DNA from: Mycobacterium sp.
GTDB lineage: Bacteria; Actinomycetota; Actinomycetes; Mycobacteriales; Mycobacteriaceae
Direction of reading: 5' to 3'
Assembly (NCBI GenBank): GCA_003987775.1
Contig: RXJD01000019.1
Span: 44,487-108,486 of the forward strand
DNA length: 64,000 bases
Shown in pieces: positions 5,982-50,691 of this stretch. Positions within the stretch are counted from its first letter, which is position 1, and the number at the start of each line of letters is the position of its first letter. Under the pieces are notes generated by a model. That model did no database searches. It was not told where the DNA came from and saw only the letters and a list, made by a program, of their open reading frames with translations. A program made the position numbers and the translations under genes.

Positions 5982-6000
5982 TACGGTTACCCATACAGTA
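5982..6000. promoter_or_regulatory. Operator-like site 1 of 9 (TACnGTA-N5-TACnGTA family)
   Basis: TACGGTTACCCATACAGTA: two TACnGTA-like half-sites separated by 5 bases, the left one with one mismatch. It sits between the divergent crotonase (5945, minus) and hotdog-protein (6109, plus) genes. The same 19-mer pattern recurs at eight other promoter regions in the window. It probably binds a TetR-type repressor, perhaps that encoded at 7684-8451. Confidence 0.6.
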
Positions 6001-6108
6001 GGCGATACGATTGCTACGGTGTATAAGTTAGCAAGGAAACCCTACCGGCGAAAACATTGCCGTGGGAACGGCCGGAAAACCGGACGACCCGGGAAGCGTT
6101 GAGGCAGC

Positions 6109-6789
6109 ATGACCGAGGGCACAGGCGGGACAGTTCCCGGTGGCGCCGCGTTTGGTGAAGCGCCGCTTGCCCAGACCGTTGCCGTCGCCGGAGCCATCCG
6201 GCGGCTCACCTCAGTGCTGCTGTCCCTGGAACAGCCGCACCCCACGGTGGAGGCGATGGTCGGCCAATTCGCCGACTGGGAACGCGAACTGGCCGCAGCG
6301 GCGCCGCGCGATCCGGCGCCCCGCATCGGATCCGACAGCGACGACGAGCGCCGGGTGTATCTCGATCACGCAACCGACATCGGTGCCTACAACCCGTGCT
6401 TTCCGGAGTATTCGTTTGACCGGCTCGATGACGGCAACGGTGCTGGAACCGTCAGATTTCCGTTGGTCTACGAAGGGCCGCCCGGTTTGGTGCACGGCGG
6501 ATTTCTCGGTGTCTTCTTCGACTGCGTCGTGCAGCACCACAACTGCGTCACCGGCTTGTCCGGCAAGACACGATCCTTGACGGTCACCTTCCGCCGGCCG
6601 ACGCCGGTCTTGACCGACCTGCGTTTCGACATCACGCGATCACCGGTCGAGCGAGCCGTCGTCTCCACGGCCCGGCTGCTGCGCGACGACGAGGTGCTGT
6701 GCACCGGCGAGGTGAACACTGCGGCATCGCGACCCGATCAGCTTTCCACCACCCAATTCGGCAGACGCCGAAAGGAGTCCGGCTCATGA
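6109..6789 (+). CDS. Hotdog-fold thioesterase family protein (PaaI-like)
   Basis: A 226-residue protein with an N-terminal helical region (about 1-80) and a C-terminal hotdog domain (about 85-210). The hotdog signature is 'GPPGLVHGGFLGVFFDCVVQHHN', with the HGG at the start of the central helix, followed by 'GKTRSLTVTFRRPTPV'. Such proteins hydrolyse acyl-CoA thioesters in the cytosol. It overlaps the next crotonase by ATGA, so the two form one unit reading away from operator site 1. Its architecture resembles the minus-strand thioesterase at 29667-30284, another hotdog protein with a long N-terminal helix region. The substrate is unknown. Confidence 0.78.
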   Translation: MTEGTGGTVPGGAAFGEAPLAQTVAVAGAIRRLTSVLLSLEQPHPTVEAMVGQFADWERELAAAAPRDPAPRIGSDSDDERRVYLDHATDIGAYNPCFPEYSFDRLDDGNGAGTVRFPLVYEGPPGLVHGGFLGVFFDCVVQHHNCVTGLSGKTRSLTVTFRRPTPVLTDLRFDITRSPVERAVVSTARLLRDDEVLCTGEVNTAASRPDQLSTTQFGRRRKESGS

Positions 6790-7676
6790 CCGCCGCGGAC
6801 ACTGCTGACGCACGGATCCTCTTCGACGTCGACCATGGCCGGCGCATCGCCACGATCACGCTGAACAACCCCGAGCGACGCAACACCTACGACCCCGCCA
6901 TGCGGGACGCCATGGCGCGGTGTCTGGATCAGGTTGCCGAGGACGACGACCTCACCGTCGTCCTGTTGCGTGGTGCAGGTGGCACATTCAGCACCGGTGC
7001 AGACATGAACAACGCTTACGGCTGGTACGGAGAGTCGGCGGGTGCGGAGGGGCAGGCGGCTAGGCGGCCGAGCCAGCGCCGCCGACTCGCTGTGGACCGC
7101 AAGTCATTTGGCTTCTACCACAATCTGATGGGCTTCCCGAAGGTCACGGTGGGAGAGATCGCCGGTTACGCTCTCGGCGGCGGGTTCGAGCTGGCGCTGA
7201 TGACCGATATCTCGGTGATCGCCCGCGATACGAAGATCGGCATGCCGGCGACCCGCTTCCTCGGACCGGCGCTGGGCAGTCTGCACATGTTCTTTCACCG
7301 GCTGGGCCCGGTGTTGGCCCGCCGTCTTCTGCTCACCGGCGACATCATTGCCGCCGCCGAGGTTGCGCATCTCGGAATCTTCACCGAGACATGCGATTCG
7401 GAGTCAGTGACGGCCCGTGCCCGGTATTGGGCTGAGAAGGCGGCAAAGATGCCGGCCGACGGTGTCGTCATCGCCAAGGAAGCCTTCCGGCTGGTGGAAC
7501 AGAGTCAGGCTTACCAGGGCGAGGAAGTCGCCAGTTATCTGTTCCACGCGTTCGGCACCAACCTGCAGTTCGCGCCGGGTGAGTTCAACTTCGTCAAAAC
7601 CCGTGCGGAGCATGGCACCAAAGAGGCGTTCCGGTTGCGCGATCAACACTTTCACGTTCCGGAACCCGAGGAATGA
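6786..7676 (+). CDS. Enoyl-CoA hydratase/isomerase family protein
   Basis: A 296-residue crotonase. It contains 'IATITLNNPERRNTYD', 'GTFSTGADMNNAYGWYG' with a long Arg/Gln-rich insertion after it, and 'IAGYALGGGFELALMTDISVIA'. The acid region 'ATRFLGPALGSLHMFFHRLG' lacks the usual Glu. The start ATG overlaps the stop of the thioesterase (ATGA) and has an AAAGGAG ribosome-binding site. It converges on the TetR gene, ending 7 bases from it. It is probably part of the same acyl-CoA degradation pathway; hydratase versus isomerase or another crotonase reaction cannot be decided. Confidence 0.86.
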   Translation: MTAADTADARILFDVDHGRRIATITLNNPERRNTYDPAMRDAMARCLDQVAEDDDLTVVLLRGAGGTFSTGADMNNAYGWYGESAGAEGQAARRPSQRRRLAVDRKSFGFYHNLMGFPKVTVGEIAGYALGGGFELALMTDISVIARDTKIGMPATRFLGPALGSLHMFFHRLGPVLARRLLLTGDIIAAAEVAHLGIFTETCDSESVTARARYWAEKAAKMPADGVVIAKEAFRLVEQSQAYQGEEVASYLFHAFGTNLQFAPGEFNFVKTRAEHGTKEAFRLRDQHFHVPEPEE

Positions 7677-7683
7677 GAGCCTT

Positions 7684-8451
7684 TCAGCGCGCGGCCGGAG
7701 ACTTGGCGCGGGTGCGACGCGGCGCAGACTTGGCGGTTTTCGACGAGGACTTGCCCGCCTCGATCAATTGACCCGCGTGATCGAGGATGCATTCGAGCCC
7801 ATACTCGAAGTTGTTTTCGTCCGGAGCGGCGATGCGGTGTCCCTTGCCGGTGACCTGAGCGATCAGCGGCGTGGTCTGCGGGTCCACGGCCACCGCTTCT
7901 TCGATGGAGCGCGTGCCGTCCTCTGATGACTGGTTTTTCTCGTGCAGCCGGTGCAGCACTACGGATCCGCGGACGTGCAGCGATATCGCGGAGTAGGTGT
8001 CGAAGGCGTCCTCGGGCGACAGCCCCGCCTCGACCAGATTGGCGATGGCCTTCTCCATTTCCTGGGCGCCGACCCGGGCTGCCTTCGGGCTCAGCGCCGC
8101 CCGGATCAGAATCAGGTCGCACAGGATCGGGTTGCCCATGAACGTCTTCCGCATCAGACGCGCATGGTTGCGCAGCGTCTCGCGCCAGTCCTTGGCTTCG
8201 ACGTAGGGAGTCGCGAACACGTATTTGCTCAAGGCGCGGTCCGTCATGGCGTTGAGCAGATCGTCCTTCTTCCGGAAGTACCAGTAGATGCTGGTGACAC
8301 CGACGCCGAGGTGCTTACCGAGCAGCGGCATGCTCAGATTGTCGATCGAAACCTGTTCTGCCAGTTCAAAAGCGCCACTGATGATGTCATCGGGATTGAT
8401 GGACCCGCGTTCGCGCCGCTGCCGCTTCTCCGCAGTCGCCTGCTTTGCCAC
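7684..8451 (-). CDS. TetR-family transcriptional repressor
   Basis: A 255-residue regulator. The N-terminal HTH spans about residues 17-65 ('INPDDIISGAFELAEQ', 'LGKHLGVGVTSIYWYFRKKDDLLNAMTDRAL'). A ligand-binding helical domain follows, and the last 25 residues form a Lys/Arg/Ser-rich tail. The start is a GTG. It lies 50 bases from operator site 2 in the divergent region with the aldolase gene, so autoregulation is likely. Because the same 19-mer lies at eight other promoters in the window, this gene is the best local candidate for the master repressor, responding to a pathway acyl-CoA. That link is inferred from position only. Confidence 0.9.
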   Translation of the reverse strand: MAKQATAEKRQRRERGSINPDDIISGAFELAEQVSIDNLSMPLLGKHLGVGVTSIYWYFRKKDDLLNAMTDRALSKYVFATPYVEAKDWRETLRNHARLMRKTFMGNPILCDLILIRAALSPKAARVGAQEMEKAIANLVEAGLSPEDAFDTYSAISLHVRGSVVLHRLHEKNQSSEDGTRSIEEAVAVDPQTTPLIAQVTGKGHRIAAPDENNFEYGLECILDHAGQLIEAGKSSSKTAKSAPRRTRAKSPAAR

Positions 8452-8501: not shown

Positions 8502-8520
8502 TACTGTAATACCTATCGTA
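8502..8520. promoter_or_regulatory. Operator-like site 2 of 9, beside the TetR gene
   Basis: TACTGTAATACCTATCGTA is one of the best copies of the motif: TACtGTA, 5 bases, then TATcGTA. It lies between the TetR gene (minus) and the DapA-like gene (plus), a normal place for an autoregulatory TetR operator. Confidence 0.65.
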
Positions 8521-8650: not shown

Positions 8651-9655
8651 ATGGCGACGGCGAGTGAAGCACGGTCCTGGGCGCGTGGCGCCCTGCGCGG
8701 CATCGGCGACTCGTTGTACACGCCATTCTGCGGCACTGACGGCGACGACATCGACTGGGATGCGTACCGGACGCTGGTGCGCTACTGCGTCGGCGATCTC
8801 GGGCACCCGATGCTGTGGTGTACCAGTGGCCTCGCCGAGTTCTGGGCCTTGACTCTGGATGAACGAAAACGCTTGCTGGAAGTGGCGATCGACGAGGGGC
8901 GACGGGCGAATCCCGGTGTCGTCGTCCAGGCATGTACCGCGGCCACGAGTGCCAAGGATTGCCTGGATCTGACGCTGCACGCTCAGCGGGTGGGGGCCGA
9001 CATCGCCTACATCCAGACGCCGATGATGGAAGCACACGGTGGCGAGGGCGTGCTGCGCTTCTTTTCCTACATCGCGGCGCGCACGGATATCGCTCTGGGC
9101 ATGTTCAATTCGCCGTCATCGGGTTACGTGCTGACGGCGTCCGAAAGTGCCCGGATCTATCACGAAATCCCGGCGGTATGCGCCACCAAGGAGGGCGCCT
9201 TCCGCCCGGAGAGCAGCCGCCGGCTGCACGACCTTGCGCCCGGTCTGGTGCTCTGGGAGTGCGACCGCACGGTCTACCGGGCCGGATGGCTGCGTGCCGG
9301 CATCGTCTGCCCGGCGCAGTTGGGCACCGCCGGCTATCTCTTCGAAACGCCGCAGCGCCGGTTGTTCTCCGAGTACTGGGACCTGGTGATGGCGGACAAG
9401 TTGCTCGAGGCGATGGACTACGGCCGGGAGTCGGGTCTGGACCAGTTCGATCTGGACCTCGGCTCGTGGTGGACCTGCTATCCCGGACGTCCGGACTACT
9501 TCACCCACTGGGGCGGTGCGTTCAAATACGCGGCATCACTACTGGGGCTGCCGATCGGGTCGTATCCGCATTCGCGCCCGCCCCAGGCGTACCTGCCTGC
9601 TGAGGCCAAGTCACAGATCGAGGCCGCCTACCGCCGGCTGGGACTCATCAGCTGA
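8651..9655 (+). CDS. DapA/DHDPS-family aldolase or hydratase
   Basis: A 334-residue class I lyase of the dihydrodipicolinate synthase/N-acetylneuraminate lyase family. The Schiff-base lysine is K180 in CATKEGAF, and the helper tyrosine is probably Y120 in YIQTPMM. An N-terminal 'CTSGLAEFWALTLDE' stands in for the usual GTTGE loop. The ATG at 8651 has a GGGAGG ribosome-binding site; an upstream in-frame ATG at 8576 lies before the family's fold begins. In a catabolic cluster such enzymes often act as retro-aldolases releasing pyruvate or as hydratase-aldolases on side chains or cleaved rings. A role in lysine synthesis is unlikely here. The real substrate is unknown. Confidence 0.82.
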   Translation: MATASEARSWARGALRGIGDSLYTPFCGTDGDDIDWDAYRTLVRYCVGDLGHPMLWCTSGLAEFWALTLDERKRLLEVAIDEGRRANPGVVVQACTAATSAKDCLDLTLHAQRVGADIAYIQTPMMEAHGGEGVLRFFSYIAARTDIALGMFNSPSSGYVLTASESARIYHEIPAVCATKEGAFRPESSRRLHDLAPGLVLWECDRTVYRAGWLRAGIVCPAQLGTAGYLFETPQRRLFSEYWDLVMADKLLEAMDYGRESGLDQFDLDLGSWWTCYPGRPDYFTHWGGAFKYAASLLGLPIGSYPHSRPPQAYLPAEAKSQIEAAYRRLGLIS

Positions 9656-10756: not shown

Positions 10757-10775
10757 TACCGATAGGTATACGGTA
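10757..10775. promoter_or_regulatory. Operator-like site 3 of 9
   Basis: TACCGATAGGTATACGGTA: TACcGAT, 5 bases, TACgGTA. The outer arms TACCG/CGGTA are perfectly complementary. It lies 40 bases before the crotonase ATG at 10815 and after the glsB-like gene, so it marks a separate transcription unit. Confidence 0.62.
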
Positions 10776-10814: not shown

Positions 10815-11645
10815 ATGAGCGCAGACGACGCGGAACGCGCGGTGCTGTACGAGGCCACGTCAGACGGCGTCGCGATTGTCACGCTCAATCGTCCGGATCG
10901 GCTCAACGCGTGGGGCCCCGATATGGCCGGCCCGTTCTACGACGCGGTGGATCGCGCCGAGCGGGACCCGGCGGTCAGGGTGATCGTGGTAACCGGGCGT
11001 GGGCGCGCCTTCTGTGCCGGCGCACACCTCGGTGCGCCTGGATCAGCCGGCCGCGTCGGTGAATCGCTGGAAAGCGCGGGCGGCAAGTCCGTCGCGGAGC
11101 TGGTAGGTGAGCGGCCCCCGCATTTCGTGACCGAGCTGCGTAAGCCCGTCATCGCGGCCATCAACGGACCCTGCGTCGGCATCGGGCTGACCCAGGCGCT
11201 GATGTGCGATGTCCGATTCGCCGCGGCCGGAGCCAAATTCGGCGCCGTGTTCGCGCGCCGCGGCCTGGTTGCCGAGTTCGGTATCTCCTGGATCCTGCCG
11301 CGACTAACCGGTTGGGGTGTCGCGCTGGATCTGCTGTTGAGCGGCCGCACGTTCCTGGCCGACGAGGCGCTTCGGCTGGGTCTGGTGAAGGAAGTCGTAC
11401 CGCCTGAGGACCTCATGACGCGGGTGATGCAGTACGCCGGGGACATCGCCCAATACTGTTCTCCGACAGCGATGGCGGTGATCAAGCGGCAGGCCTATGG
11501 CGACGCCTCGCGCGACATCGTCACCGCGACAGCGGATGCCGAGGCGTTGATGTGGGAGGCCCTGCCTCGGCCCGATGTCCGCGAAGGGATCGTCAGTTTC
11601 CTGCAAAAGCGGCCGCCGCAATTTCCTTCGCTCACCGACGGGTAG
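10815..11645 (+). CDS. Enoyl-CoA hydratase/isomerase family protein
   Basis: A 276-residue crotonase with an AGGAG ribosome-binding site. Motifs are 'VAIVTLNRPDRLNAWG', the oxyanion-hole segment 'RAFCAGAHLGAPG', 'INGPCVGIGLTQALMCDVRFAAAGAKFG', and the acid region 'RRGLVAEFGISWILPRLTGW' with a glutamate in the catalytic place. It is probably an active hydratase or isomerase. It stands alone behind operator site 3, between the stress islet and mmpS-mmpL, yet shares its operator type with the catabolic operons, so it is likely part of the same regulon. Confidence 0.88.
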   Translation: MSADDAERAVLYEATSDGVAIVTLNRPDRLNAWGPDMAGPFYDAVDRAERDPAVRVIVVTGRGRAFCAGAHLGAPGSAGRVGESLESAGGKSVAELVGERPPHFVTELRKPVIAAINGPCVGIGLTQALMCDVRFAAAGAKFGAVFARRGLVAEFGISWILPRLTGWGVALDLLLSGRTFLADEALRLGLVKEVVPPEDLMTRVMQYAGDIAQYCSPTAMAVIKRQAYGDASRDIVTATADAEALMWEALPRPDVREGIVSFLQKRPPQFPSLTDG

Positions 11646-17641: not shown

Positions 17642-18868
17642 TCAGGCAATGGCGCCGGCGTCTTTGAGGGCGGCGATGCGGTCCCAGTCCATCCCGATCT
17701 CCATAAGGACGATCTCGGTGTGCTCGGAGGCTTGTGGTGCCCGGGTGGTTTGCAGCGGCTCGTGGTTGAACTGAACCGGTCCGCGTACCACTTTGAATGG
17801 CGCTCCGCCGCTGGCCACTTCGACCTCTGAGATCATGTCGTTGGCGAGCGCCTGCTCGTCCTGGGCCAGGTCGAGCAGGCTCTGGAACGGCGCCCACTGA
17901 CCTTTCATGGTCTTCAGGTGCTGTCGCCAGTACGCGAACGGCTTGGCGGCGAACGCGTCGGCGATGAGCTTGCCGGCCGCATCGGCATTCTGTATCAGGG
18001 GCAGCACTTCGGAGAAGCGAGGATCGTCGGCCGCCTCCGGAATTCCGAGATGCTCGAAGGTATCCCGGATCAGCCCGGTCGGGCTGATGATGCAGAGGTT
18101 GATGGTGCCGCCGTCGGAGGTCAGGTAGTTGCCCATGAACGGGTTGACCGAGGGGGCGAGAGATCCGGGCATGGGTGTGCGCATCACCTCTCCGGCCTCC
18201 ATGCCCTGGGTGACGCTTGCACCTGCCGCCCACCACGCGGTGCTCAGCAATGACACGTCGAGCTCGACAGCTTCGCCGGTGCGTTCCCGGTGCAGCAGTG
18301 CCGCCGAGATGCCCCCGGCGATGAACATCCCCCCGATGGAGTCGCCGAACGCCGGAATGCCTTGCCCCAGCGCGCCACCCAGTTCCGCGGGGGTCAGGGC
18401 GTAGCCCACGCCGCTGCGGGTCCAGAAGGCCGTGCCGTCATACCCGCCGGTGTGCCGTTCGGGCCCCTTGTCGCCATACGCCGACCCGCGCGCGTAGATG
18501 ATGCCGGGATTCGCCGCGCGGATGTGCTCCACGTCGAACTTGTTCTTCTGGCGCTGCGCGGGAAGGTAGTTGGTGAGAAAGACGTCGGAAACCTTGGCTA
18601 ATTCGTAGAGCACTTCCTGACCGCCCGGTGTGGCCACGTCGATACCGACGCTGCGTTTGCCGCGGTTCGGGTGCTCCATGAGGGGATGGCGGTCCGGGTT
18701 GATCTGGATGCCGCCCATATTGAGGAAGCCACGCTGGGTGTCTCCCCGCAGGGGGTGTTCGACCTTGATGACGTCGGCTCCCCAGTCGGCGAGGATCGCT
18801 CCCGCCGCCGGGACGAAGGTGAACTGCGCGACCTCGAGGACCCGAATGCCCTCCATCACCCTGATCAT
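17642..18868 (-). CDS. CaiB/BaiF-family (class III) CoA transferase
   Basis: A 408-residue class III CoA transferase. It has the N-terminal 'IRVLEVAQFTFVPAAGAILADWGADVIKVEHPLRGD', 'NRGKRSVGIDVATPGGQEVLYEL', and a catalytic Asp probably in 'TGGYDGTAFWTRSGVGY'. Later come 'GDSIGGMFIAGGISAALLHRERTGEAVELDVSL'. These enzymes move CoA between carboxylic acids, or racemise 2-methylacyl-CoAs (AMACR-like members). The ATG at 18868 has an AGAGG site; a second ATG four codons in is possible. Operator site 4 lies 40 bases upstream. In this cluster it probably activates a pathway acid without ATP or epimerises a methyl-branched CoA ester. Confidence 0.88.
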   Translation of the reverse strand: MIRVMEGIRVLEVAQFTFVPAAGAILADWGADVIKVEHPLRGDTQRGFLNMGGIQINPDRHPLMEHPNRGKRSVGIDVATPGGQEVLYELAKVSDVFLTNYLPAQRQKNKFDVEHIRAANPGIIYARGSAYGDKGPERHTGGYDGTAFWTRSGVGYALTPAELGGALGQGIPAFGDSIGGMFIAGGISAALLHRERTGEAVELDVSLLSTAWWAAGASVTQGMEAGEVMRTPMPGSLAPSVNPFMGNYLTSDGGTINLCIISPTGLIRDTFEHLGIPEAADDPRFSEVLPLIQNADAAGKLIADAFAAKPFAYWRQHLKTMKGQWAPFQSLLDLAQDEQALANDMISEVEVASGGAPFKVVRGPVQFNHEPLQTTRAPQASEHTEIVLMEIGMDWDRIAALKDAGAIA

Positions 18869-18908: not shown

Positions 18909-18927
18909 TACTGTAGTCAGTACGGTA
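18909..18927. promoter_or_regulatory. Operator-like site 4 of 9
   Basis: TACTGTAGTCAGTACGGTA: two perfect TACnGTA half-sites separated by exactly 5 bases, the best copy in the window. It lies 40 bases before the CaiB-type gene on the minus strand. Confidence 0.68.
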
Positions 18928-19050: not shown

Positions 19051-19069
19051 TACCGATAGGTATACAGTA
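19051..19069. promoter_or_regulatory. Operator-like site 5 of 9
   Basis: TACCGATAGGTATACAGTA differs at one position from site 3. It lies 58 bases before the amidohydrolase ATG and probably controls the five-gene operon 19128-25049. Confidence 0.65.
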
Positions 19070-19127: not shown

Positions 19128-20333
19128 ATGGCAACGCTGGGCTACCAGGCGATCGACGTCGACAATCACTACTACGAACCGATCGACTCGTTCACCCGTT
19201 ACCTGCCGAAGGAGTTCAAGCGGCGCGGCGTGCAGATGCTGCGGGACGGCAAACGAACCTGGGCGGTGATCGGCGAACGCATCAACCAGTTCATCCCCAA
19301 CCCGACCTTCGACCCGATCATCGAACCGGGCTGCCTGGACTTGCTGTTCCGCGGCGAGATTCCCGACGGCGTCGACCCGGCCTCGCTGATGAAGGTCGAC
19401 CGGCTGGAAAACCATCCGGAGTATCAGAATCGCGAGGCCCGGGTGCGCGTGATGGACACCCAGAATCTCGAGACGGTCTTCATGTTGCCGACCTTCGCCT
19501 GTGGCGTCGAGGAAGCCCTCAAAGGCGACATCGACGCCACCATGGCCTCGGTGCACGCATTCAACCAATGGCTGGACGAGGACTGGGGATTCGATCGTCC
19601 CGATCACCGCATCATCTCCGCGCCGATCATCTCCCTGGCCGACCCCGAGATGGCCATCCAGGAGGTCGAATTCGTGCTCGGCCGAGGTGCCAAGATGGTG
19701 CTGGTCCGGCCGGCTCCGGTGCCGGGCCGAGTCAAGCCCCGCTCGCTCGGGGACCCGGTGCATGACCCGGTCTGGGCCCGGCTGGCCGAGGCCGGCGTTC
19801 CCGTCGGGTTCCACCTCAGCGACAGCGGCTATCTGGCCATCAACGCGCTGTGGGGCGGCAAGGCCACCTTCGAGGGATTCGGTAAGAAGGACCCGCTCGA
19901 CCAGGTGCTGCTGGACGACCGCGCGATCCACGACACGATGGCCTCGATGATCGTGCACCAGGTCTTCACCCGGCACCCCACGCTGAAGGTCGCGAGCATC
20001 GAGAATGGCTCGTACTTCGTCTACCGGCTGATCAAGCGGCTGAAGAAGGCGGCCAACACCGCGCCGTACCACTTCAAGGCCGACCCGGTTGAGCAGCTGA
20101 AGAACAATGTCTGGATCGCGCCGTACTACGAGGACGACGTGAAGCTGCTCGCCGAGACGATCGGCGTGGACAAGATTCTGTTCGGCTCGGACTGGCCACA
20201 CGGAGAGGGCCTGGCCGATCCCATGTCGTTCACCGCCGACATCCCGCAGTTTCCCGAGTTCAGTACCGAGGACACCCGGAAAGTGATGCGCGACAACGCC
20301 CTTGACCTGCTGGGCGCGAGCGTCACGGTGTAA
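19128..20333 (+). CDS. Amidohydrolase family protein (amidohydrolase_2, PF04909-like)
   Basis: A 401-residue TIM-barrel metal-dependent hydrolase or decarboxylase. Its N-terminus 'AIDVDNHYYEP' is typical of the mycobacterial branch. Later come 'VLVRPAPVPGRVKPRS', a metal-binding His in 'VGFHLSDSGY', and the Asp motif FGSDWPHGEG near the C-terminus. The family includes ring-cleavage-product hydrolases and nonoxidative decarboxylases such as ACMSD and gamma-resorcylate decarboxylase. The ATG at 19128 follows GGGGAAGGA. It is closely similar in plan to the protein at 55890-57095. It is first in an operon with a ligase, a second amidohydrolase and an ACAD pair. The reaction is not known. Confidence 0.85.
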   Translation: MATLGYQAIDVDNHYYEPIDSFTRYLPKEFKRRGVQMLRDGKRTWAVIGERINQFIPNPTFDPIIEPGCLDLLFRGEIPDGVDPASLMKVDRLENHPEYQNREARVRVMDTQNLETVFMLPTFACGVEEALKGDIDATMASVHAFNQWLDEDWGFDRPDHRIISAPIISLADPEMAIQEVEFVLGRGAKMVLVRPAPVPGRVKPRSLGDPVHDPVWARLAEAGVPVGFHLSDSGYLAINALWGGKATFEGFGKKDPLDQVLLDDRAIHDTMASMIVHQVFTRHPTLKVASIENGSYFVYRLIKRLKKAANTAPYHFKADPVEQLKNNVWIAPYYEDDVKLLAETIGVDKILFGSDWPHGEGLADPMSFTADIPQFPEFSTEDTRKVMRDNALDLLGASVTV

Positions 20334-20341
20334 CACGCACG

Positions 20342-22818: not shown

Positions 22819-22821
22819 CGA

Positions 22822-23859: not shown

Positions 23860-23864
23860 TCGCA

Positions 23865-26317: not shown

Positions 26318-26336
26318 TACTGTAAGAGTTACCGGA
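26318..26336. promoter_or_regulatory. Operator-like site 6 of 9
   Basis: TACTGTAAGAGTTACCGGA: TACtGTA, 5 bases, TACcGGA (one mismatch). It also contains TATACT at 26316-26321, a possible -10 box. It lies 42 bases before the P450 ATG. Confidence 0.6.
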
Positions 26337-29664: not shown

Positions 29665-29666
29665 CG

Positions 29667-31943: not shown

Positions 31944-31962
31944 TACTAAATTCGTTACAGTA
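31944..31962. promoter_or_regulatory. Operator-like site 7 of 9
   Basis: TACTAAATTCGTTACAGTA: a weak left half (TACtAAA), 5 bases and a perfect right half TACaGTA. It lies 15 bases before the Rieske start and 49 before the BVMO ATG, so one operator could serve both operons. Confidence 0.55.
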
Positions 31963-32010
31963 TAGATTTCAGCACGTTGGCTCTACTCATCCGGTGTCGC
32001 GAGGAGCGAG

Positions 32011-33651: not shown

Positions 33652-33660
33652 GTGATTGGT

Positions 33661-36807: not shown

Positions 36808-38304
36808 TCAGGGCAAGATCACGGTGCGGGTCACCGGCTCCGCGGGAATTTGCCGGGCGGACAGCGCGCGTTGCAGCGAGGCCAGCAGCGCATCGCGGGT
36901 CTCCCGCGGATCGATCAGTTCGTCGAAACCGAACCCTTCAGCCGAGCGGAAGGATGCCTGCAGCTCAGCGTCGCGCAGTTTGGCGGTCAGGTCCTCACCG
37001 GCGTGGGAGGCGCGGCTGAGTGCGGCGGCGCTCATCGCACCCATCGTCGCTCCCGGATAGGCGAACGTGGCGGACTGGTGGTCGAAGCCGAGCAGCGACA
37101 TCACCATGGAGCCGAAGCCGTAAGCCTTGCGCAAGGTCAGATGCAACTTGATCGTCGTCGCGGCGGTCTGCGCGGCGAACATCCGCCCGCCGCTGCGCAG
37201 GACACCGCTGCGCTCGGAGCGGCTGCCGGGCAGCATCCCCGGATTGTCGGCCAGGAACACGATGGGCAGATGGAACGAATCGGCGACCAGGATGAAATGC
37301 GCTGCCTTGTCCGCGGCGGCGGCGTCGATCGAACCGGCCAGCACCTGCGGCTGATTGGCGACGACGGCGACGGGATGCCCGCCCAGGTGCGCCAGCGCGC
37401 AGATGATCGCCCTGCCGAACGACGGTTGCACCTCGAACCAGTCGGGGCGGTCGAAGACCACGTCGAGCACCGCGCGCATGTCATAGACGCGACGATTGTC
37501 CCGGGAGACGATGTTCAACAACTCCGGGGTGGGCCGCGGTGCCGTCGTTTCGTCGGCGGGCAGGCCGGGCGGATAGGACCAGGCGCTTGCCGGAAAATAG
37601 GACAAATAACGGCGGATTTCGTCGAGCACCGTCTCGTCGTCCTCGGCGACGTTGTGGATCACCCCGCTGGGCAGTGCGACGTCCGGGCCGCCCAGGTCCT
37701 CCTTCGAAATGTCCTCTCCCGTGGACTCTTTCACCACCGGCGGGCCGGCGGTGAAGATGGTGCCGTGCCGGCTCATGATCCGGAAATCACACACCGGAGC
37801 CACCAGGGCGCCGTGCCCGGCCGAGGGACCCAGCACCGCGGCCACCGTGGGCACCCGCCCCGAACACTGCGTCTGGGCGAGCAGGTCGGTGGGGGTGCGG
37901 CCGTAATGCCCACCGGTGGGCCGAAATCCCGCGCCGTCGAGCAGCATCACCAGTGGGACGCGGTCGCGCACCGCAAGCTCGGCGATCCGGTACCGCTTGG
38001 AATTGCCGCCGGGCCCGATGCTTCCGGCCAGCGTGGTGAAGTCCTCGGCGCCGACCATGACAGGTTTGCCATGGACCAGGCCCGAACCCGTGACGATCGC
38101 GTCGGCGGCGACGTCACCGCCGACCAGGGTGCCGATTTCCCGGAACGTGCCGGCGTCCAGGAGCCGCTCGATGCGGGCCCGCGCGTCCAGTTTGCCTTTG
38201 CCGCGGTGCTTGTCGAGGCGCTCCTGCCCACCCATGCCGCGGGAGTGCCGGCGGCGGCGGTCGAGGTCGTCGAGCGTCTCCTGCCAGTCCTGGGAGTTGG
38301 CCAT
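36808..38304 (-). CDS. Acyl-CoA carboxylase carboxyltransferase (beta) subunit family
   Basis: A 498-residue carboxyltransferase of the AccD/PccB family. The N-terminal half has 'RRRRHSRGMGGQERLDKHRGKGKLDARARIERLLDAGTFREIG'. The acyl-CoA oxyanion loop is 'LDGAGFRPTGGHYGRTPTDLLAQTQCSGRVPTVAAVLGPSAGHGALVAPVCDFRIM', and the carboxybiotin half is 'FLADNPGMLPGSRSERSGVLRSGGRMFAAQTAATTIKLHLTLRKAYGFGSMVM'. I use the ATG at 38304 with a GAGGA site; an upstream GTG at 38355 lacks one. No biotin carboxylase/BCCP gene is nearby, so it must borrow an alpha subunit or act in decarboxylation. Operator site 8 is 77 bases upstream. Confidence 0.87.
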   Translation of the reverse strand: MANSQDWQETLDDLDRRRRHSRGMGGQERLDKHRGKGKLDARARIERLLDAGTFREIGTLVGGDVAADAIVTGSGLVHGKPVMVGAEDFTTLAGSIGPGGNSKRYRIAELAVRDRVPLVMLLDGAGFRPTGGHYGRTPTDLLAQTQCSGRVPTVAAVLGPSAGHGALVAPVCDFRIMSRHGTIFTAGPPVVKESTGEDISKEDLGGPDVALPSGVIHNVAEDDETVLDEIRRYLSYFPASAWSYPPGLPADETTAPRPTPELLNIVSRDNRRVYDMRAVLDVVFDRPDWFEVQPSFGRAIICALAHLGGHPVAVVANQPQVLAGSIDAAAADKAAHFILVADSFHLPIVFLADNPGMLPGSRSERSGVLRSGGRMFAAQTAATTIKLHLTLRKAYGFGSMVMSLLGFDHQSATFAYPGATMGAMSAAALSRASHAGEDLTAKLRDAELQASFRSAEGFGFDELIDPRETRDALLASLQRALSARQIPAEPVTRTVILP

Positions 38305-38380: not shown

Positions 38381-38399
38381 TACCGAATTGCTTACTGTA
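38381..38399. promoter_or_regulatory. Operator-like site 8 of 9, overlapping a likely -10 box
   Basis: TACCGAATTGCTTACTGTA: TACcGAA, 5 bases, TACtGTA. It lies 12 bases before the LLM ATG at 38411. TACTGT at 38393-38398 is well placed as a -10 box, so the transcript would be leaderless or nearly so, and a bound repressor would block the polymerase directly. Confidence 0.62.
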
Positions 38400-38410: not shown

Positions 38411-39430
38411 ATGGTGCGTGGGGGCCTCAAGATCGACGGTGGCATACCCAACAGGCTGGACCGAGTGGTCGAGGCGGCCGGTGCTCTGGAACAGCAGGGC
38501 TTCGACGGCGGCTGGACCGCCGAAACCAGCCACGACCCGTTCCTGCCGCTGTTGCTGGCAGCCGAACACACCTCTCGCATCGATCTCGGCACCAACATCG
38601 CGGTGGCCTTCGCCCGCAACCCCATGACCGTCGCCAACCTCGGGTGGGACCTGCAGGAGTACTCGCAGGGCCGGTTCATCATCGGGCTGGGCACCCAGAT
38701 TCAGGCTCACATCGAGAAGCGGTTCAGCATGACGTGGAGCCACCCTGCCCGCCGGATGCGCGAGTTCGTCGAAGCGCTGCACGCGATCTGGTCGGCCTGG
38801 AAGGACGGCACCAAGCTCCGGTTCGAGGGTGACTTCTACACGCACAAGATCATGACGCCGATGTTCACGCCGGAGCCGAACCCGTACCCGCCGCCGAAGA
38901 TTTTTCTCGCGGCGGTCGGTGAGGCGATGACCGAGATGTGCGGTGAGGTGGCCGACGGCCATCTCGGTCACCCGATGGTGTCCAAGCGCTATCTCACCGA
39001 CGTGACCTTGCCCATCCTGCAACGCGGTCTCGAACGGGCGGGCCGGGACCGCAGCGCCTTCGAGGTGTCGGCGGAGGTGATGGTCGCCACCGGCACCAAC
39101 GAGGACGAGCTGAAAGCCGCCATGGCGGCCACCCGAAAACAGATCGCGTTCTACGGGTCCACCCCGGCATACCGCAAGGTGCTCGAACTGCACGGCTGGG
39201 GCGACCTGCACGAGGAACTGCACCGCCTCTCCAAAGAAGGCGAGTGGGATGCCATGGGATCACTGATCGACGACGAGATCCTCGGCACCTTCGCCGTGGT
39301 CGGCCCGGCCGACGACGTCAGCGTTGCGCTGCGTTCCAGGTGCGACGGAGTGGCCGACCGGGTGCTGCCCATCTTCTATGCCGCTTCGCCGGACTGTGTT
39401 CAGCGGGCGCTCAAGGACTTTCGCCGATGA
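38411..39430 (+). CDS. Luciferase-like (LLM class) F420-dependent-type oxidoreductase
   Basis: A 339-residue LLM protein: 'VVEAAGALEQQGFDGGWTAETSHDPFLPLLLAAEHTSRIDLGTNIAVAFARNPMTVANLGWDLQEYSQGRFIIGLGTQIQAHIEKRFSM'. This fits the mycobacterial F420-dependent subgroup, and its length is close to the 340 residues reported for Rv1360. There is no ribosome-binding site before the ATG and a -10-like box lies 13-18 bases upstream, so leaderless translation is likely. It overlaps the P450 by ATGA and opens an operon of LLM, P450, SDR, VOC and SDR. Likely a hydride-transfer step on a pathway ketone or alcohol. Confidence 0.88.
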   Translation: MVRGGLKIDGGIPNRLDRVVEAAGALEQQGFDGGWTAETSHDPFLPLLLAAEHTSRIDLGTNIAVAFARNPMTVANLGWDLQEYSQGRFIIGLGTQIQAHIEKRFSMTWSHPARRMREFVEALHAIWSAWKDGTKLRFEGDFYTHKIMTPMFTPEPNPYPPPKIFLAAVGEAMTEMCGEVADGHLGHPMVSKRYLTDVTLPILQRGLERAGRDRSAFEVSAEVMVATGTNEDELKAAMAATRKQIAFYGSTPAYRKVLELHGWGDLHEELHRLSKEGEWDAMGSLIDDEILGTFAVVGPADDVSVALRSRCDGVADRVLPIFYAASPDCVQRALKDFRR

Positions 39431-40713
39431 GCGCGCCGACCATGGACGAGGCCGCGAGGTTGCTGGCGGATCCGCAGGCCTACACCGATGAAGGGCGGCT
39501 GCACGCGGCGCTCACCCATCTGCGTGCCAGCGCGCCGGTGTGCCGCGTCGACGTACCCGGTTACCGGCCGTTCTGGGCGATCACCAAGTACGCCGACGTG
39601 ATGGATATCGAGCGCAACAACGGGCTGTTCACCAACTGGCCGCGGCCGGTACTGGCGACCATCGAAGGCGACGAGTTGCAGGCGGCCTCGGGGGTGCGCA
39701 CGCTGATCCATCTGGACGATCCGCAGCACCGGGTGGTGCGTGCCATCGGCTCGGACTGGTTCCGGCCCAAAGCGATGCGTGCGCTGAAGATTCGCGTCGA
39801 CGAACTGGCCAGGATCTACGTCGACAAGATGAGAGCAGTCGGTCCGCAGTGCGACTTCGTGCAAGAGGTGGCGGTGAACTTCCCGCTCTACGTGATCATG
39901 TCGCTGCTCGGTATCCCCGAGGCCGACTTCCCCCGCATGCTCAAGCTGACCCAGGAACTGTTCGGCAGCGACGACAGCGAATACAAGCGCGGCACCACGG
40001 CCGAGGACCAGTTGCCCGCGCTGCTGGACATGTTCGGCTATTTCAACGGAGTGACCGCTGCCCGCCGCGAGCACCCGACCGAAGATCTCGCATCCGCGAT
40101 CGCCAACGCCCGCATCGACGGGGAGCCGCTGTCGGATATCGAAACGGTGTCCTACTACCTGATTGTCGCCACCGCCGGACATGATACGACCAGCGCCACC
40201 ATCTCCGGTGGGCTGCACGCGCTGCTGGAAAACCCGGACCAGCTCCGGCGGCTGCAGGACGACCCCGCCCTGATGCCGCGCGCCACCGAGGAGATGATCC
40301 GCTGGGTCACTCCGGTCCGGCATTTCATGCGTACCGCTGCCGCCGACACTGAGGTGCGCGGAGTCCCGATCGCGGCCGGCGAATCGGTGCTGCTGTCCTA
40401 CGTGTCGGCCAACCGCGACGAGGACGTATTCGACGATCCGTTCCGCTTCGATGTCGGGCGCGAGCCCAACAAGCACGTGGCTTTCGGCTACGGAGTGCAT
40501 TTCTGCATGGGAGCGGCGCTCGCCCGAATGGAGGTCGGCAGTTTCTTCGCCGAGCTGCTGCCCCGGCTGACATCCATCGAGCTGGCCGGTGATCCGGAAC
40601 TGGTCGCCGCGACGTTCGTCGGGGGGTCTCAAGCACCTGCCCGTGCGGTATTCGCTGTCCTAGGATGCGATCGATATGACGCCCAAGACGATTGTCATCA
40701 CCGGTGCCAGTGA
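39427..40713 (+). CDS. Cytochrome P450 with a probable frameshift at its 3' end
   Basis: A soluble P450: I-helix AGHDTTSATI, ExxR in EEMIRWVTPVRHFMR, and heme loop FGYGVHFCMGAALARMEV with Cys360. As read, it has 428 residues and its last 30 (after FVGG) are unlike any P450 and run 38 bases into the next gene. If one G is removed from the run of six at 40621-40626, the frame becomes GGLKHLPVRYSLS and stops at 40663. That is the usual P450 C-terminus and leaves a normal 12-base gap before the SDR. So there is either a sequencing error or a true +1 change; the heme domain is intact either way. It oxidises a hydrophobic substrate. Confidence 0.9.
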   Translation: MSAPTMDEAARLLADPQAYTDEGRLHAALTHLRASAPVCRVDVPGYRPFWAITKYADVMDIERNNGLFTNWPRPVLATIEGDELQAASGVRTLIHLDDPQHRVVRAIGSDWFRPKAMRALKIRVDELARIYVDKMRAVGPQCDFVQEVAVNFPLYVIMSLLGIPEADFPRMLKLTQELFGSDDSEYKRGTTAEDQLPALLDMFGYFNGVTAARREHPTEDLASAIANARIDGEPLSDIETVSYYLIVATAGHDTTSATISGGLHALLENPDQLRRLQDDPALMPRATEEMIRWVTPVRHFMRTAAADTEVRGVPIAAGESVLLSYVSANRDEDVFDDPFRFDVGREPNKHVAFGYGVHFCMGAALARMEVGSFFAELLPRLTSIELAGDPELVAATFVGGSQAPARAVFAVLGCDRYDAQDDCHHRCQ

Positions 40714-41503
40714 CGGCATCGGTGCCGCGGCCGCTCGGCAACTCACCCGCGGCGGTGCGAAGGTGGTCGTGGTGGGCCGCTCGCAGCGCAAGACGACTGC
40801 GGTGGCAGAAGAGCTGGGCGCGGACTACTACGTGGCCGATTTCGCCGACCTGTCCCAGGTGCGGGCGCTGGCGGACAAGATCCGCTCGGAGTATCCGCGC
40901 ATCGACGTGCTGGCCAACAACGCAGGCGGTATGTGCCGGGAACCCGAGATGACCGCCGACGGGCTGGAGAAGACGTATCAGGTCAACTATCTGGCGCCCT
41001 TCCTGCTCACCACAGAGCTGCTGGACACGCTCGTCGACTCGCGTGCGACCGTCGTCAACACCACCAGCTCGTCGCAGCGGTTGCTACCCAAGGTCACGAT
41101 CACCGATTTCGAGCACACCGCGCGGCGCCGGCCCGGCATCGCCTATGCACTGACCAAACTGGCAATCGTGTTGTTCACCAAGGAATTACACCGCCGCTAT
41201 CGGGAAATATCGGCGGCGACTTTTCATCCGGGCTACGTCAACTCCAACTTCGGTGAAGCCTCGGGCTCGCGGTTGCTGCACTTCATGAAGAACTACGTCC
41301 CGGTGACGGCCCGGTTCACCGCCACCGCGGACGAGGGGGCCGAACAACTGGTCTGGCTGGCCTCTGCTACCCCCGGGGTCGACTGGCAACCGGGCGAGTA
41401 CTACTCGCGGCACAAAGTCTCGAAGGCCAACCGCGCGGCCTACGATCCCGTGCTGGCCGGCGAACTCTGGGATCGCACGGTTGCCGCACTGGCGCGGACC
41501 TAG
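40676..41503 (+). CDS. Short-chain dehydrogenase/reductase (SDR)
   Basis: A 275-residue classical-type SDR. The cofactor motif is TGASDGIGAA at about residues 8-17, NNAGG follows, the catalytic Ser lies in VNTTSSSQR, and the YxxxK is YALTK. It resembles the retinol-dehydrogenase/WWOX-like SDR branch ('EKTYQVNYLAPFLLT'). It acts on an alcohol/ketone pair with NAD(P). It follows the P450 in the LLM-P450-SDR operon, a usual order for oxidising a fresh hydroxyl group to a ketone. Confidence 0.9.
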   Translation: MTPKTIVITGASDGIGAAAARQLTRGGAKVVVVGRSQRKTTAVAEELGADYYVADFADLSQVRALADKIRSEYPRIDVLANNAGGMCREPEMTADGLEKTYQVNYLAPFLLTTELLDTLVDSRATVVNTTSSSQRLLPKVTITDFEHTARRRPGIAYALTKLAIVLFTKELHRRYREISAATFHPGYVNSNFGEASGSRLLHFMKNYVPVTARFTATADEGAEQLVWLASATPGVDWQPGEYYSRHKVSKANRAAYDPVLAGELWDRTVAALART

Positions 41504-41568
41504 CCGGGGTCGCTGTCCGGCCTGCTGCCGGCGCGGTAATACTGGATGCGCTACCGGAAGGGGACTTC

Positions 41569-42009
41569 GTGCTGGGTGTTCATCACGCCGCCATCTGTAC
41601 CGCCGATGTCGGACGCTCGCTGCGGTTCTGGCGGGACGGACTCGGATTGACGGAACTGTTCGACCACACCTTCACCGGTGACTGGCCGGAACTGTTCGGC
41701 GCCGAGACCGATCAGTTGAGATCGATCTTTCTCGGGGACCCGCAGGCACCGGACGGCGGGATCGTCGAGTTGGTGGAGTTGTCCGGGGCCGACGAGACGC
41801 CGCGCGAATACTCCGGCCCCAGGCACGGGTTCTTTCTCCTCTCGCTGCAGCGCGAGGTGGATGCGACGCTGGCCACGCTGGCGGACCTGGGCTTCACCGA
41901 CGGCGTCCGTCAGATCACCATGCCCGCCCCGGCGGGCAAGACGGTTCCGATGGCGGTGATCACCGCCCCGGACGGCGTGCTGGTCGAACTGATCGGACCC
42001 GCGGCATGA
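41569..42009 (+). CDS. VOC-superfamily (glyoxalase/dioxygenase-like) protein
   Basis: A 146-residue vicinal-oxygen-chelate protein with two beta-alpha-beta-beta-beta modules: 'VHHAAICTADVGRSLRFWRDGLGLTELFD' and 'RHGFFLLSLQREVDATLATLADLGF...APDGVLVELIGPA'. The first His (HHAAI) and the last Glu (VELIG) are in metal-ligand positions. The GTG start follows GGAAGGGGA. It overlaps the next SDR by ATGA. Members include epimerases (such as methylmalonyl-CoA epimerase), glyoxalases and dioxygenases; which applies here is not clear. Confidence 0.82.
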   Translation: MLGVHHAAICTADVGRSLRFWRDGLGLTELFDHTFTGDWPELFGAETDQLRSIFLGDPQAPDGGIVELVELSGADETPREYSGPRHGFFLLSLQREVDATLATLADLGFTDGVRQITMPAPAGKTVPMAVITAPDGVLVELIGPAA

Positions 42010-42788
42010 GCGCCTCGACTGCGCTGGTGACCGGTGGTGGCTCCGGGATCGGCCGCCAGGCCGCCGAGATGCTGCGCGATGCCGGCCACGACGTCGTCGT
42101 CTGGGATGTGGCAAATGGCGACATCGCCTGCGACATCAGCGATCTGGACTCCGTGACGGCGGCCATGGAGCAGACCGTCCGCGAGCACGGAGTGCCCACC
42201 CGGGTGGTGGCCTCGGCGGGTATCGGCTCGTCCGGTCTGTTGCTGGCCATCGATCCCGCCGAGTGGCAGCGGGTATTGGCCGTCAATCTGACCGGCACCT
42301 TCTACACGATCCGGGCGGCCGCCCAGGCCATGGTCGACGCCGAACAGGAAGGCTCGATCGTCGTCGTCTCGAGCATCAGCGGCACGGTCGCGGACCGGGA
42401 CATGGGTGCCTACTGCGTGTCCAAGGCGGGCCTGGACATGCTGGTGAAGGTCGCGGCGGTCGAGTGGGGTGTGCACGGTATCCGGGTGAACGCCGTCGGT
42501 CCCGGTGTCACCCGGACCCCGATGCTGCCCGACGCCGAGAAGTGGCCCGCCTGGGTCGAGGGCATGTCCAAGCGGACCGCGCTGCGCCGGCTGGGCGAGC
42601 CCGGCGACGTGGCGCAGGCCATTGTGGGTGTGCTCGAAATGTCCTGGGTGACAGGCCAAGTGCTGCACGCCGACGGCGGATTGTCGCTACACAGCCCGAT
42701 CGACGCCTACGGCCAGGTCGAGAAGCTGATGCGGCTCAAGAAGCTGCAGGAGCTCCACAAAGCCAAGCAGAAAGCCAGCGAGGCCTAG
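42006..42788 (+). CDS. Short-chain dehydrogenase/reductase (SDR)
   Basis: A 260-residue classical SDR: TGGGSGIGRQ cofactor loop at about residues 9-18, 'ASAGIGSSG' in place of NNAG, Ser in 'VVVSSISGTV', and YCVSK as YxxxK. The C-terminal 'GQVLHADGGLSLHSP' is typical of FabG-like enzymes. It oxidises or reduces a hydroxy/keto intermediate, with NAD the more likely cofactor as no basic residue follows the Gly motif closely. It is the last gene of the operon from 38411 and converges on the alcohol dehydrogenase, with a degenerate inverted repeat between. Confidence 0.9.
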   Translation: MSASTALVTGGGSGIGRQAAEMLRDAGHDVVVWDVANGDIACDISDLDSVTAAMEQTVREHGVPTRVVASAGIGSSGLLLAIDPAEWQRVLAVNLTGTFYTIRAAAQAMVDAEQEGSIVVVSSISGTVADRDMGAYCVSKAGLDMLVKVAAVEWGVHGIRVNAVGPGVTRTPMLPDAEKWPAWVEGMSKRTALRRLGEPGDVAQAIVGVLEMSWVTGQVLHADGGLSLHSPIDAYGQVEKLMRLKKLQELHKAKQKASEA

Positions 42789-49024: not shown

Positions 49025-49037
49025 GGAAGGGGTCGGG

Positions 49038-49802
49038 CTAAACCGGCGTGAACTTGGTGATCAGCCACTTCCCGTCGACCAGAGCCAGATTCACCAGTGC
49101 GCTGCTCGCCGCCATCGACGGTTCCGGATTGTCCTTGCTGGTCGTGCTCTGGTCCACGAAGACCAGCACCACCGCGGAGTCCGGGTGCAACTCCTGCACC
49201 GCGGCGCGCATGACGTGGGCCGAGGTCTTCAGCGACTTCTGTTTGGCCGCCGGCGCGACGATCTGCTGCGTGAACTGGTCGTAGTACGACAGGAAGTCGC
49301 CGGTCAAATGCGAGCGGGCCGAGGCGAAGTCTTTGTCGAGGGTGTCCGGCGCATAGGACAGCAATGCGACCGTTCCGTCCGAGGCCGCGCTGACCGCCGC
49401 ACGCCCCACGCTGGGGCTGGTCCGCTGGTCGGGCCGGTGATAGTGGGCGTACAGCCATGCCGTCACGCCACCGGAGATCAGCACCAGCACGATCAGCAGC
49501 ACCGGAATGGGCCTGACGGTGATCTTGCGGCTCCAGATGTCGCGCCGCCAGTTCGGCTTGCGCTGCGCGGGCTCGGCGTCCTCGGCGGCGTGAACCTCGG
49601 GTTCGTCTTCGACGTCGGCGTCCTCGTCGACGGCTTCGGCGACGTCTGCGTCGGAATAGTGGTCTGAGTAGTTGTCGGGATGGTCGTCGGAGTAGGTGTC
49701 CAACTCGTCGTCGCGATCCTCGCCGAGGGTGTCGATCACCGTGGTTTCGGTGTCGTCGGCGGGGTGCTTGGTGGCGTTCGATTCGCGTTCGTCATCGCTC
49801 AC
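49038..49802 (-). CDS. Mce-associated membrane protein (Rv1362c-like)
   Basis: A 254-residue protein. The N-terminal 90 residues are acidic and disordered (Asp/Glu/Tyr/Ser-rich). One membrane segment is at about 97-117 ('[21 protein letters not shown]'), and the outer domain has the Mce-associated pattern '[70 protein letters not shown]'. Proteins of this kind stabilise Mce lipid-import complexes. Start is GTG, overlapping the upstream stop (GTGA). The pair directly precedes an Rv1364c-like gene and rsfA, as Rv1362c-Rv1363c do in M. tuberculosis. Confidence 0.85.
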
Positions 49803-50641
49803 GGCACGAACTCAACTTTCGACATCTTGTACTGTCCGTCCTCTTCGGTCACGGTCACGCGCAAGCGCCACGCGCGGGGCTCGTCCTTGGCCCCTGCGGA
49901 ATTGGTGACGCGGGAGGTCGCCGACACCAGCACCTGCGCGGTGCGCCCGTCCATGGATTCGATCGCTGCCGCGTTGACCGTGCCCTCGGTGACCACCTTG
50001 GACTGCTCGACCACCTTGGTGAAGTCGGCCGCGCGCTGCTGGAAGTCGTCGCGGAACTCGCCGGTGGAACTGTCGATGACGCGCTGGACGTCGTCTTTGG
50101 CCTTCTTGAAGTCCAGCGAGGTCATGTTGACGACGCCCTTCTTGGCACCGGCGATGAAAGCCGCCGCCTTCTGCTCCCGGTCGGTGGCCTGGTGGTGCTC
50201 CCACACGAAGTAGCCACTTAGGCCGCTGAATCCCAGGATCAGCAATACCGCGACCACCTTGGCGATCGTCGACAGTCCCGGGAACCGCACCGCGCCGCGC
50301 ATGCGTTCCCGCCGCGACGGCTTCGCCGCTGCCTCGGGTTCGGCCTCGCTGTAGTTCTCCGACTCGTCATAGCCTTCCGGCTCTTCGTATTCGTCGGCGT
50401 CTTCGTACTCGTCGGACTCGTCGTACTCGTCGTCGTCGTAGTCCTCGTACTCGTAGTCCTCTTCGTCTTCGTCGTCATCATCGGCAGCGGCAAGCGCTTC
50501 CCGGCGTAACCGGGCGGCGCGAGCCTTGGCGCGTGCCGCCGCGGCCAGCGCCTCGGCCTCGGCGGCCTCAGCCTCGGCCTCCGCGGCCAGCGCCAGCACG
50601 TCGGCCTTCGACGGCACCGCGTCGTCGTCTCTGTCAGCCAT
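49799..50641 (-). CDS. Mce-associated membrane protein (Rv1363c-like)
   Basis: A 280-residue protein. The N-terminus is an Ala/Glu-rich probable coiled coil (about 10-45), followed by a highly acidic Asp/Glu/Tyr stretch (about 50-105). One membrane segment is at about 125-147 ('[22 protein letters not shown]'), and the outer domain has '[67 protein letters not shown]'. I use the ATG at 50641; a GTG three codons earlier is possible. It forms a two-gene unit with the next protein. Operator site 9 lies 31 bases upstream, which would place this pair under the same control as the catabolic operons. Confidence 0.85.
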
Positions 50642-50672
50642 TACGGCCACCGCTCGTCATTATCGACTGAAC

Positions 50673-50691
50673 TCCGGTATCTCTTACGGTA
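50673..50691. promoter_or_regulatory. Operator-like site 9 of 9
   Basis: TCCGGTATCTCTTACGGTA: TCCgGTA (one mismatch), 5 bases, TACgGTA. It lies between the Mce-associated pair (minus) and the ACAD pair (plus). Confidence 0.6.

Follow-up and report, generated by a model that had tools for sequence, protein, structure and literature searches.

Nine copies of a 19-bp palindrome lie between the genes of a catabolic cluster in a 64,000-nucleotide stretch of the Mycobacterium sp. assembly GCA_003987775.1 (contig RXJD01000019.1, positions 44,487 to 108,486; the whole stretch is called the window). Judged by comparison of genomes, these 19-mers are very probably bound by the TetR-family protein encoded among them at 7684-8451 (TetR below), which is the best-supported candidate binder. 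The complete explanation, namely that TetR represses the cluster through the 19-mer operators and that the repression is relieved by a pathway intermediate, was given a probability of about 0.87.

Sites in the window and the genome

The window forms the right-hand end of contig C92 in a genome of 7,292,936 bases; the genome was scanned by pattern and the window by matrix. The 19-mers were present at all nine coordinates of an earlier sequence-only reading (5982, 8502, 10757, 18909, 19051, 26318, 31944, 38381, and 50673), and a direct mismatch count agreed with its statement that both halves are perfect at 18909. Relative to the 12 fixed bases of TACNGTA-N5-TACNGTA, there were 0 mismatches at 18909; 1 at 5982, 8502, 26318, 38381, and 50673; and 2 at 10757, 19051, and 31944. 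Scanning of the 64-kb window at every position gave 12 places with ≤2 mismatches, consisting of the nine sites, 5994, 31956, and 41540. Places 5994 and 31956 mark a third half-site 12 bp further on at sites 5982 and 31944, and 41540, the sole place apart from the nine sites and their third half-sites, is weak (8.3 bits). All 12 lie between gene calls, although the intergenic share of the window is only 11.7%. The earlier claim that the sites occur only between genes, which was partly built in as promoter regions alone had been read there, therefore holds in an unbiased scan. The distance from the nine sites to the nearer start codon was 12 to 66 bp, as measured on gene calls from a codon-model script made for this analysis, whose start codons may be off.

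For the matrix, 64 distinct intergenic sites were taken from mycobacteria other than this one and from further genera. Although from other genomes, the training sites were first chosen by the earlier pattern at ≤1 mismatch, and reverse complements were added to make the matrix symmetric, which means that its symmetry does not count as separate evidence. The consensus, TACTGTAA-N3-TTACAGTA, fits better than TACNGTA-N5-TACNGTA. In the window, ten matches scored ≥16.9 bits (16.9-24.8), namely 31956 and the nine sites, one of which it overlaps. Below them came 5994, the third half-site at site 1, with 15.0 bits, and then a match of 10.4 bits. With a second-order Markov control, the mean was 0.01 matches, and there was no more than one in 100 runs.

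In the genome, TACNGTA-N5-TACNGTA was found at 32 places with ≤2 mismatches, 12 of them inside the window. The extended palindrome TACYGTAA-N3-TTACRGTA was found with ≤3 mismatches at 17 places, including all nine sites and one further place 10 kb upstream of the window; an even spread of these 17 would put 0.15 in the window, versus nine observed. Both patterns were framed only after the sites had been seen. By both the genome pattern scan and the window matrix scan, matches concentrate in the intergenic DNA of the cluster, which favours the earlier reading by a check that it had itself proposed. Three places with ≤1 mismatch lie outside the window, two within genes and one intergenic. The places at C45:18147, C47:24083, and C110:7560/7572 were taken as background because they lie within genes; C53:143947 is intergenic.

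Conservation in orthologous loci

The TetR-orthologue set comprised 80 of 288 loci from Mycobacterium and one Mycolicibacterium (1.55 Mb); there was no Mycobacterium tuberculosis locus among these listed matches. The 80 loci held 150 places with ≤1 mismatch, versus 0 to 20 for eleven control palindromes. A site was present upstream of tetR in 78 of the 79 loci with upstream sequence, a count made without asking for any given sequence and hence free of selection by likeness, and 71 of these sites were identical, letter for letter (TACGATAGGTATTACAGTA). The sole exception is Mycobacterium lepraemurium (L071), where the TetR gene is kept (81%) but its upstream site, nearly invariant elsewhere, is lost. 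In promoter alignments, conservation of site columns versus flanks was 0.99 versus 0.57 for tetR (77 distinct windows), 0.98 versus 0.74 for ECH-3/orf226 (66 distinct windows), and 0.99 versus 0.60 for ECH-5/AmidoH-1 (69 distinct windows); the aligned windows were selected by likeness to the reference site (up to 4/19 mismatches), which raises site identity somewhat. The motif is thus conserved in orthologous promoters, as the earlier reading had required of a true operator.

A scan of 1.23 Mb of fetched regions from 27 genomes, training genomes included, gave 179 sites, 5 of them within genes. Among the matches listed, the same operon types carried a site in genomes G107, G034, G020, G028, G081, G100, and G029. 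Sites were also kept with relocated genes. The P450-1 orthologue (70%) at G020:C1:3889464, 2.1 Mb from tetR, has a site at G020:C1:3889396, and the orthologue (83%) of the PCC-beta carboxyltransferase on another contig (G100:C53:90281) has one at G100:C53:91803. In the genome studied here, a site at C112:111887 (19.2 bits) lies upstream of the gene for a 391-aa thiolase (C112:110662-111837), orthologues of which (75-91%) are in the fetched TetR regions of nine genomes (G034, G020, G028, G081, G100, G260, G169, G239, and G338). The site upstream of the window, C92:34325 (13.3 bits), precedes an APH-like kinase gene; in G100, a relative (61%) of this gene is divergent to the carboxyltransferase gene, with a site between them. 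The gene behind the upstream site (L099:14379-15455) encodes an APH/ecdysteroid-kinase-like phosphotransferase; kinases of this kind can act on hydroxyacyl-CoAs in hydroxy-acid breakdown. A ChsH2-like protein is also encoded behind a site in G020, G034, G100, and G338.

TetR as the candidate regulator

The closest solved chains to TetR are tetracycline repressors (5mru, E 6e-15), and the AlphaFold2 model had a mean pLDDT of 62.5 (alignment of 22 close relatives). TetR scored below the curated cutoff of NCBIfam NF010319 (78 versus 265 bits); among the ten proteins compared with NCBIfam, only the thioesterase domain of the protein encoded at 57173-58204 was above a cutoff.

Matches to TetR at E ≤1e-20 were found in 118 of 148 sampled Mycobacterium genomes; five of these were weak (best E 8e-43 to 6e-61), and 113 were close orthologues. 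At least three sites were present in 110 of the 113 genomes with a close orthologue (median 7), versus 3 of the 35 in which the match was weak or absent. The close-orthologue genomes with few sites were G041 (1), G069 (0), and G076 (2), and those with at least three sites and TetR absent or weak were G091 (3), G074 (7), and G114 (5). The presence of TetR therefore tracks the motif across the 148 genomes, which bears out its earlier nomination as the best candidate repressor. The recognition segment GVTSIYW was kept in 40 of 43 TetR homologues, which speaks for TetR. A further set of 25 loci (559 kb), each surrounding a TetR homologue and drawn from Mycobacterium in eight cases and from other genera in 17, held 49 places with ≤1 mismatch, versus 0, 0, 0, 1, 1, and 11 for six control palindromes, and a site was present in 18 of the 25 loci, including 17/17 from other genera. 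Even distant homologues had a site upstream, at 39% (G261) and 44% (G109b) identity, or about 1 kb away, at 43% (G190).

The sites might be bound instead by another regulator of the cluster, above all the protein at 57173-58204, in which a TetR helix-turn-helix domain is fused to a hotdog (4HBT) thioesterase domain; TetR would then be a mere neighbour. The fusion is a TetR_N protein of the cluster, and it was found at full length (E ≤1e-150) in 47 of the 148 genomes, 46 of which have at least three sites. Weaker matches, mostly to the TetR part, were found in 61 more. However, at least three sites were still present in 64 of the 67 genomes with a close TetR and no full-length fusion, and in 0 of the 7 with a fusion-like match and no close TetR, and none of the 24 best matrix matches in the window lies at the promoter of the fusion gene itself. 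The fusion was rejected as main regulator because its presence does not track the motif, and binding by a regulator other than TetR is considered very unlikely.

Promoter overlap and proposed mechanism

Promoter overlap was computed for one promoter family only, that of operator 5 (AmidoH-1 type). A predicted -10 box, TATACA (19061-19066), lies inside operator 5, as do ten of the 17 bp that separate it from the -35 box, TTGCAG at 19038-19043. Among 69 distinct orthologous windows, TATACA was present in 65, and TTG was located exactly 17 bp before the -10 box in 63, versus 0 to 3 for any other spacing from 14 to 20. At 10757, the second copy of this type in the window, TATACG takes the place of TATACA and TTG is missing from the -35 position. 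The overlap may explain the near-invariance of operator 5 despite its departure from the consensus.

Each half of the palindrome (TACNGT) also fits the -10 box consensus TANNNT. The 19-mer could accordingly be mainly a promoter element for a sigma factor, or TetR could act as an activator. The position of the right half of operator 5 within the predicted -10 box, with its well-spaced TTG, agrees with a promoter element. Such an element would, however, be asymmetric and one half would be enough, whereas both halves are kept over the 19-bp unit, at divergent promoters too. Coverage of the -10 box favors repression over activation, and both alternatives together are improbable. That operator 5 covers the predicted -10 box and part of the spacer fits repression by occlusion, which has been reported for KstR (PMC1995591).

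From the computed features (sites, conservation, position, TetR co-occurrence, and one promoter overlap), we infer binding, dimer stoichiometry, repression, ligand release, operon extents, and substrate as follows. A TetR dimer would bind the palindrome TACTGTAA-N3-TTACAGTA in front of its own gene as well as at the other eight cluster sites and, as the operators would overlap promoters, would block RNA polymerase. A pathway intermediate would bind TetR and release it from the DNA, as is suggested by the family to which the protein belongs. Release would induce the window genes behind the operators together with the thiolase on another contig and the APH-like kinase upstream of the window.

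Observations weighing against this explanation

Several observations count against this explanation. The genome totals were not above those of the backwards-pattern control (32 versus 164 at ≤2 mismatches, 9 versus 12 at ≤1 mismatch, and 17 versus 21 for the extended palindrome). As the raw totals are no higher than the control, the signal consists of clustering, position, and conservation. These totals are also what speaks for the 19-mers being a chance or compositional artefact of reading promoters by eye; that view is contradicted by the clustering, the unbiased window scan, the independent matrix, the conservation footprints, and the site at the tetR promoter in 78/79 loci, and its probability is negligible.

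Other points concern the distribution of TetR and the motif. G074 and G114 have 7 and 5 scattered matches and no TetR, and a possible joint loss of TetR with the entire cluster means that co-occurrence is not fully independent evidence. Seven of the 25 further TetR-homologue loci, all within Mycobacterium, have no site; these are four homologues of 43-45% identity with the recognition helix kept and paralogues in G059, G031, and G006, although G059, site-less by pattern, has one match of ≥14 bits by matrix. The recognition segment GVTSIYW is present in site-less homologues too, so the helix alone does not decide. In the motif-rich clusters of G310, G177, G239, and G169, there was no site in the 450 bp upstream of tetR. 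Each of the more distant clusters of G034 and G020 encodes a further TetR paralogue (59% and 50%; L115:6633-7325 and the G020 cluster) that has the recognition helix unchanged and may share operators with TetR. Within the window, no site of >14 bits was found in 42861-48955, between the divergent ADH/P450-3 (-) and Rieske ferredoxin, AmidoH-3, AmidoH-4, and alpha/beta hydrolase (+) genes.

Two side observations belong to these regions. Relatives of P450-3 (53-56%) in other genomes do have a site. The 3.3-Mb genome G074 carries a tandem site at G074:C1:160778-160808 (L177; 21.6 and 18.7 bits), beside which there was no cluster gene, only crotonase matches of 28-30%.

Regulon genes and likely substrate

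The features are listed in Table 1. About 34-36 window genes lie in the operons downstream of the nine sites, as judged from inferred operon extents. The earlier estimate of one regulon of some 30 genes is close in number, and the regulon is not confined to the window, as the thiolase and APH-like kinase genes lie outside it.

Table 1 Operators and genes of the predicted TetR regulon (window coordinates)
Feature	Position	Strand	Remarks
ECH-3, ECH-2, ECH-1, FadD-b, FadD-a (operon)	514..5945	-	Pfam; ECH-3-type gene first behind site in 16/27 scanned genomes
Operator 1 with third half-site	5982..6012	.	Between ECH-3 and orf226; 31 bp with three TACNGTA-like halves at 12-bp intervals; 23.5 and 15.0 bits
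orf226 and crotonase ECH-4	6109..7676	+	orf226 without Pfam match
tetR, candidate repressor	7684..8451	-	255 aa; TetR_N and TetR_C_1 above Pfam cutoff
Operator 2	8502..8520	.	Between tetR and DHDPS-like aldolase gene; 23.3 bits
DHDPS-family aldolase	8651..9655	+	Pfam
Operator 3	10757..10775	.	40 bp before crotonase ECH-5; 19.0 bits
Crotonase ECH-5	10815..11645	+	Pfam; ECH-5-type gene first behind site in 16/27 scanned genomes
CoA-transferase family III (CaiB)	17642..18868	-	First behind site in 7/27 scanned genomes
Operator 4	18909..18927	.	Both halves perfect, 41 bp before CaiB (-); 24.8 bits
Operator 5	19051..19069	.	59 bp before AmidoH-1 operon; 21.8 bits
AmidoH-1, FadD-c, AmidoH-2, ACAD-1, ACAD-2 (operon)	19128..25049	+	
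Operator 6	26318..26336	.	12 bp before P450-1; 20.7 bits
Cytochrome P450-1	26348..27583	+	
KshA-like Rieske oxygenase, isochorismatase, 4HBT thioesterase, FadD-d, lipocalin-like (operon)	27580..31920	-	
Operator 7 with third half-site	31944..31974	.	Between KshA-like oxygenase (-) and BVMO (+); 23.7 and 17.9 bits
BVMO, esterase, SnoaL-like, LLM-1 (operon)	32011..36205	+	
Carboxyltransferase (PCC-beta-like)	36808..38304	-	
Operator 8	38381..38399	.	Between carboxyltransferase (-) and LLM-2 (+); 24.2 bits
LLM-2, P450-2 (P450terp-like), SDR-1	38465..42788	+	Glyoxalase and SDR-2 possibly in the LLM-2 unit
Two genes named Mce-associated in the sequence-only reading	49038..50641	-	No Pfam match at E 1e-4
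Operator 9	50673..50691	.	Between gene pair 49038-50641 (-) and ACAD-3 (+); 16.9 bits; orthologous site in G107, G006, G029
Acyl-CoA dehydrogenase pair ACAD-3, ACAD-4	50826..53179	+	

P450-2 was closest to P450terp (E 2.6e-102), the KshA-like Rieske protein to 3-ketosteroid 9-alpha-hydroxylase (E 3.9e-33), and the BVMO to phenylacetone monooxygenase (5.9e-165), followed by steroid monooxygenase (3.7e-150). The enzyme set, with P450s, a steroid-monooxygenase-like BVMO, a KshA-like oxygenase, an esterase, CoA ligases, acyl-CoA dehydrogenase pairs, crotonases, and a thiolase, suggests that a cyclic compound resembling a terpenoid or steroid is oxidised, opened at the ring, and degraded by beta-oxidation. 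The enzymes do not choose between a terpenoid and a steroid, and several substrates would be compatible with them. A wider proposal is offered tentatively and is rather doubtful: TetR might be the master repressor of a whole ring-degradation pathway that is as yet undescribed. The pathway would act on one class of cyclic isoprenoids, either terpenoid or steroid-like, would occur in the majority of the Mycobacterium genomes sampled and in several further genera of the family, and would run in parallel to the cholesterol system of KstR/KstR2. In that case, the 31-bp operators with three halves might each recruit two dimers on neighbouring turns and thereby shut the divergent crotonase and BVMO/KshA promoters most tightly.

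The orf226 product (6109-6789) shows by eye a hotdog-thioesterase-like GPPGxVHGGF signature, and in most of the loci examined its gene stands beside ECH-4 under the three-half operator. An MmpS/MmpL pair (11955-15262) in the cluster, which has no operator of its own and follows ECH-5 at a distance of about 310 bp, may encode a transporter transcribed from the promoter of that gene.

Comparison with known regulators

Although a close TetR orthologue is present in 113 of the 148 sampled Mycobacterium genomes, no description of the motif or regulon was found in the literature searched; subscription papers were mostly outside its scope, and the motif logos in the available part of a TetR survey (PMC4482099) were not comparable. 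The operator yields a list of genes of one pathway, including genes elsewhere in the genome, and the TetR ligand offers a handle for identifying the substrate. Many mycobacterial genes for P450s, crotonases, amidohydrolases, and acyl-CoA dehydrogenases that are named only by family would thereby gain a function.

The operators of KstR, KstR2, BkaR, and MbdR were rejected as the identity of the nine sites on the basis of motif searches of the window, with each motif taken from the accessible text of its source. The KstR core TnnAACnnGTTnnA (14 bp; PMC1995591) matched none of the nine sites and had its only window match at 53997, and no match in the window was found for the KstR2 motif AnCAAGnnCTTGnT (PMC3068626), the BkaR core GTTA(N)T(N4)A(N)TAAC (PMC3920632), or the MbdR motif ATACN10GTAT (PMC4424350). 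The earlier statement that the motif is not the KstR or KstR2 site was thus correct.

The closest solved structure, the tetracycline repressor TetR, shares the C-terminal family TetR_C_1 with the protein described here, whose gene differs in having catabolic genes and no efflux gene as neighbours. MbdR of Azoarcus, according to the accessible text, is a TetR-type repressor that governs a cluster of catabolic genes; its 18-bp palindrome has TAC and GTA at the flanks, and its inducer is a CoA thioester, but it belongs to an unrelated organism and pathway (PMC4424350). BkaR, as described in the part available, is a TetR repressor from mycobacteria whose dimer recognises a palindrome in its own promoter and in those of catabolic genes nearby (PMC3920632), as is proposed here. 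The KstR2 system resembles the present one in its divergent promoters near the regulator gene and in its motif-to-start distances, mostly 22-82 bp versus 12-66 bp here, and differs in its regulon of 15 genes, as far as the accessible text describes it (PMC3068626). KstR is described in the available text as an autoregulated TetR-family dimer whose palindromic operator occurs in many lipid and cholesterol catabolism promoters, partly over the -10 box (PMC1995591). The same combination of a TetR-family regulator, a palindrome at its own and many catabolic promoters, and an operator lying over a predicted -10 box (at operator 5) is seen here. The cluster is very probably a TetR-controlled catabolic regulon of the KstR/KstR2 type with its own, apparently undescribed, operator.

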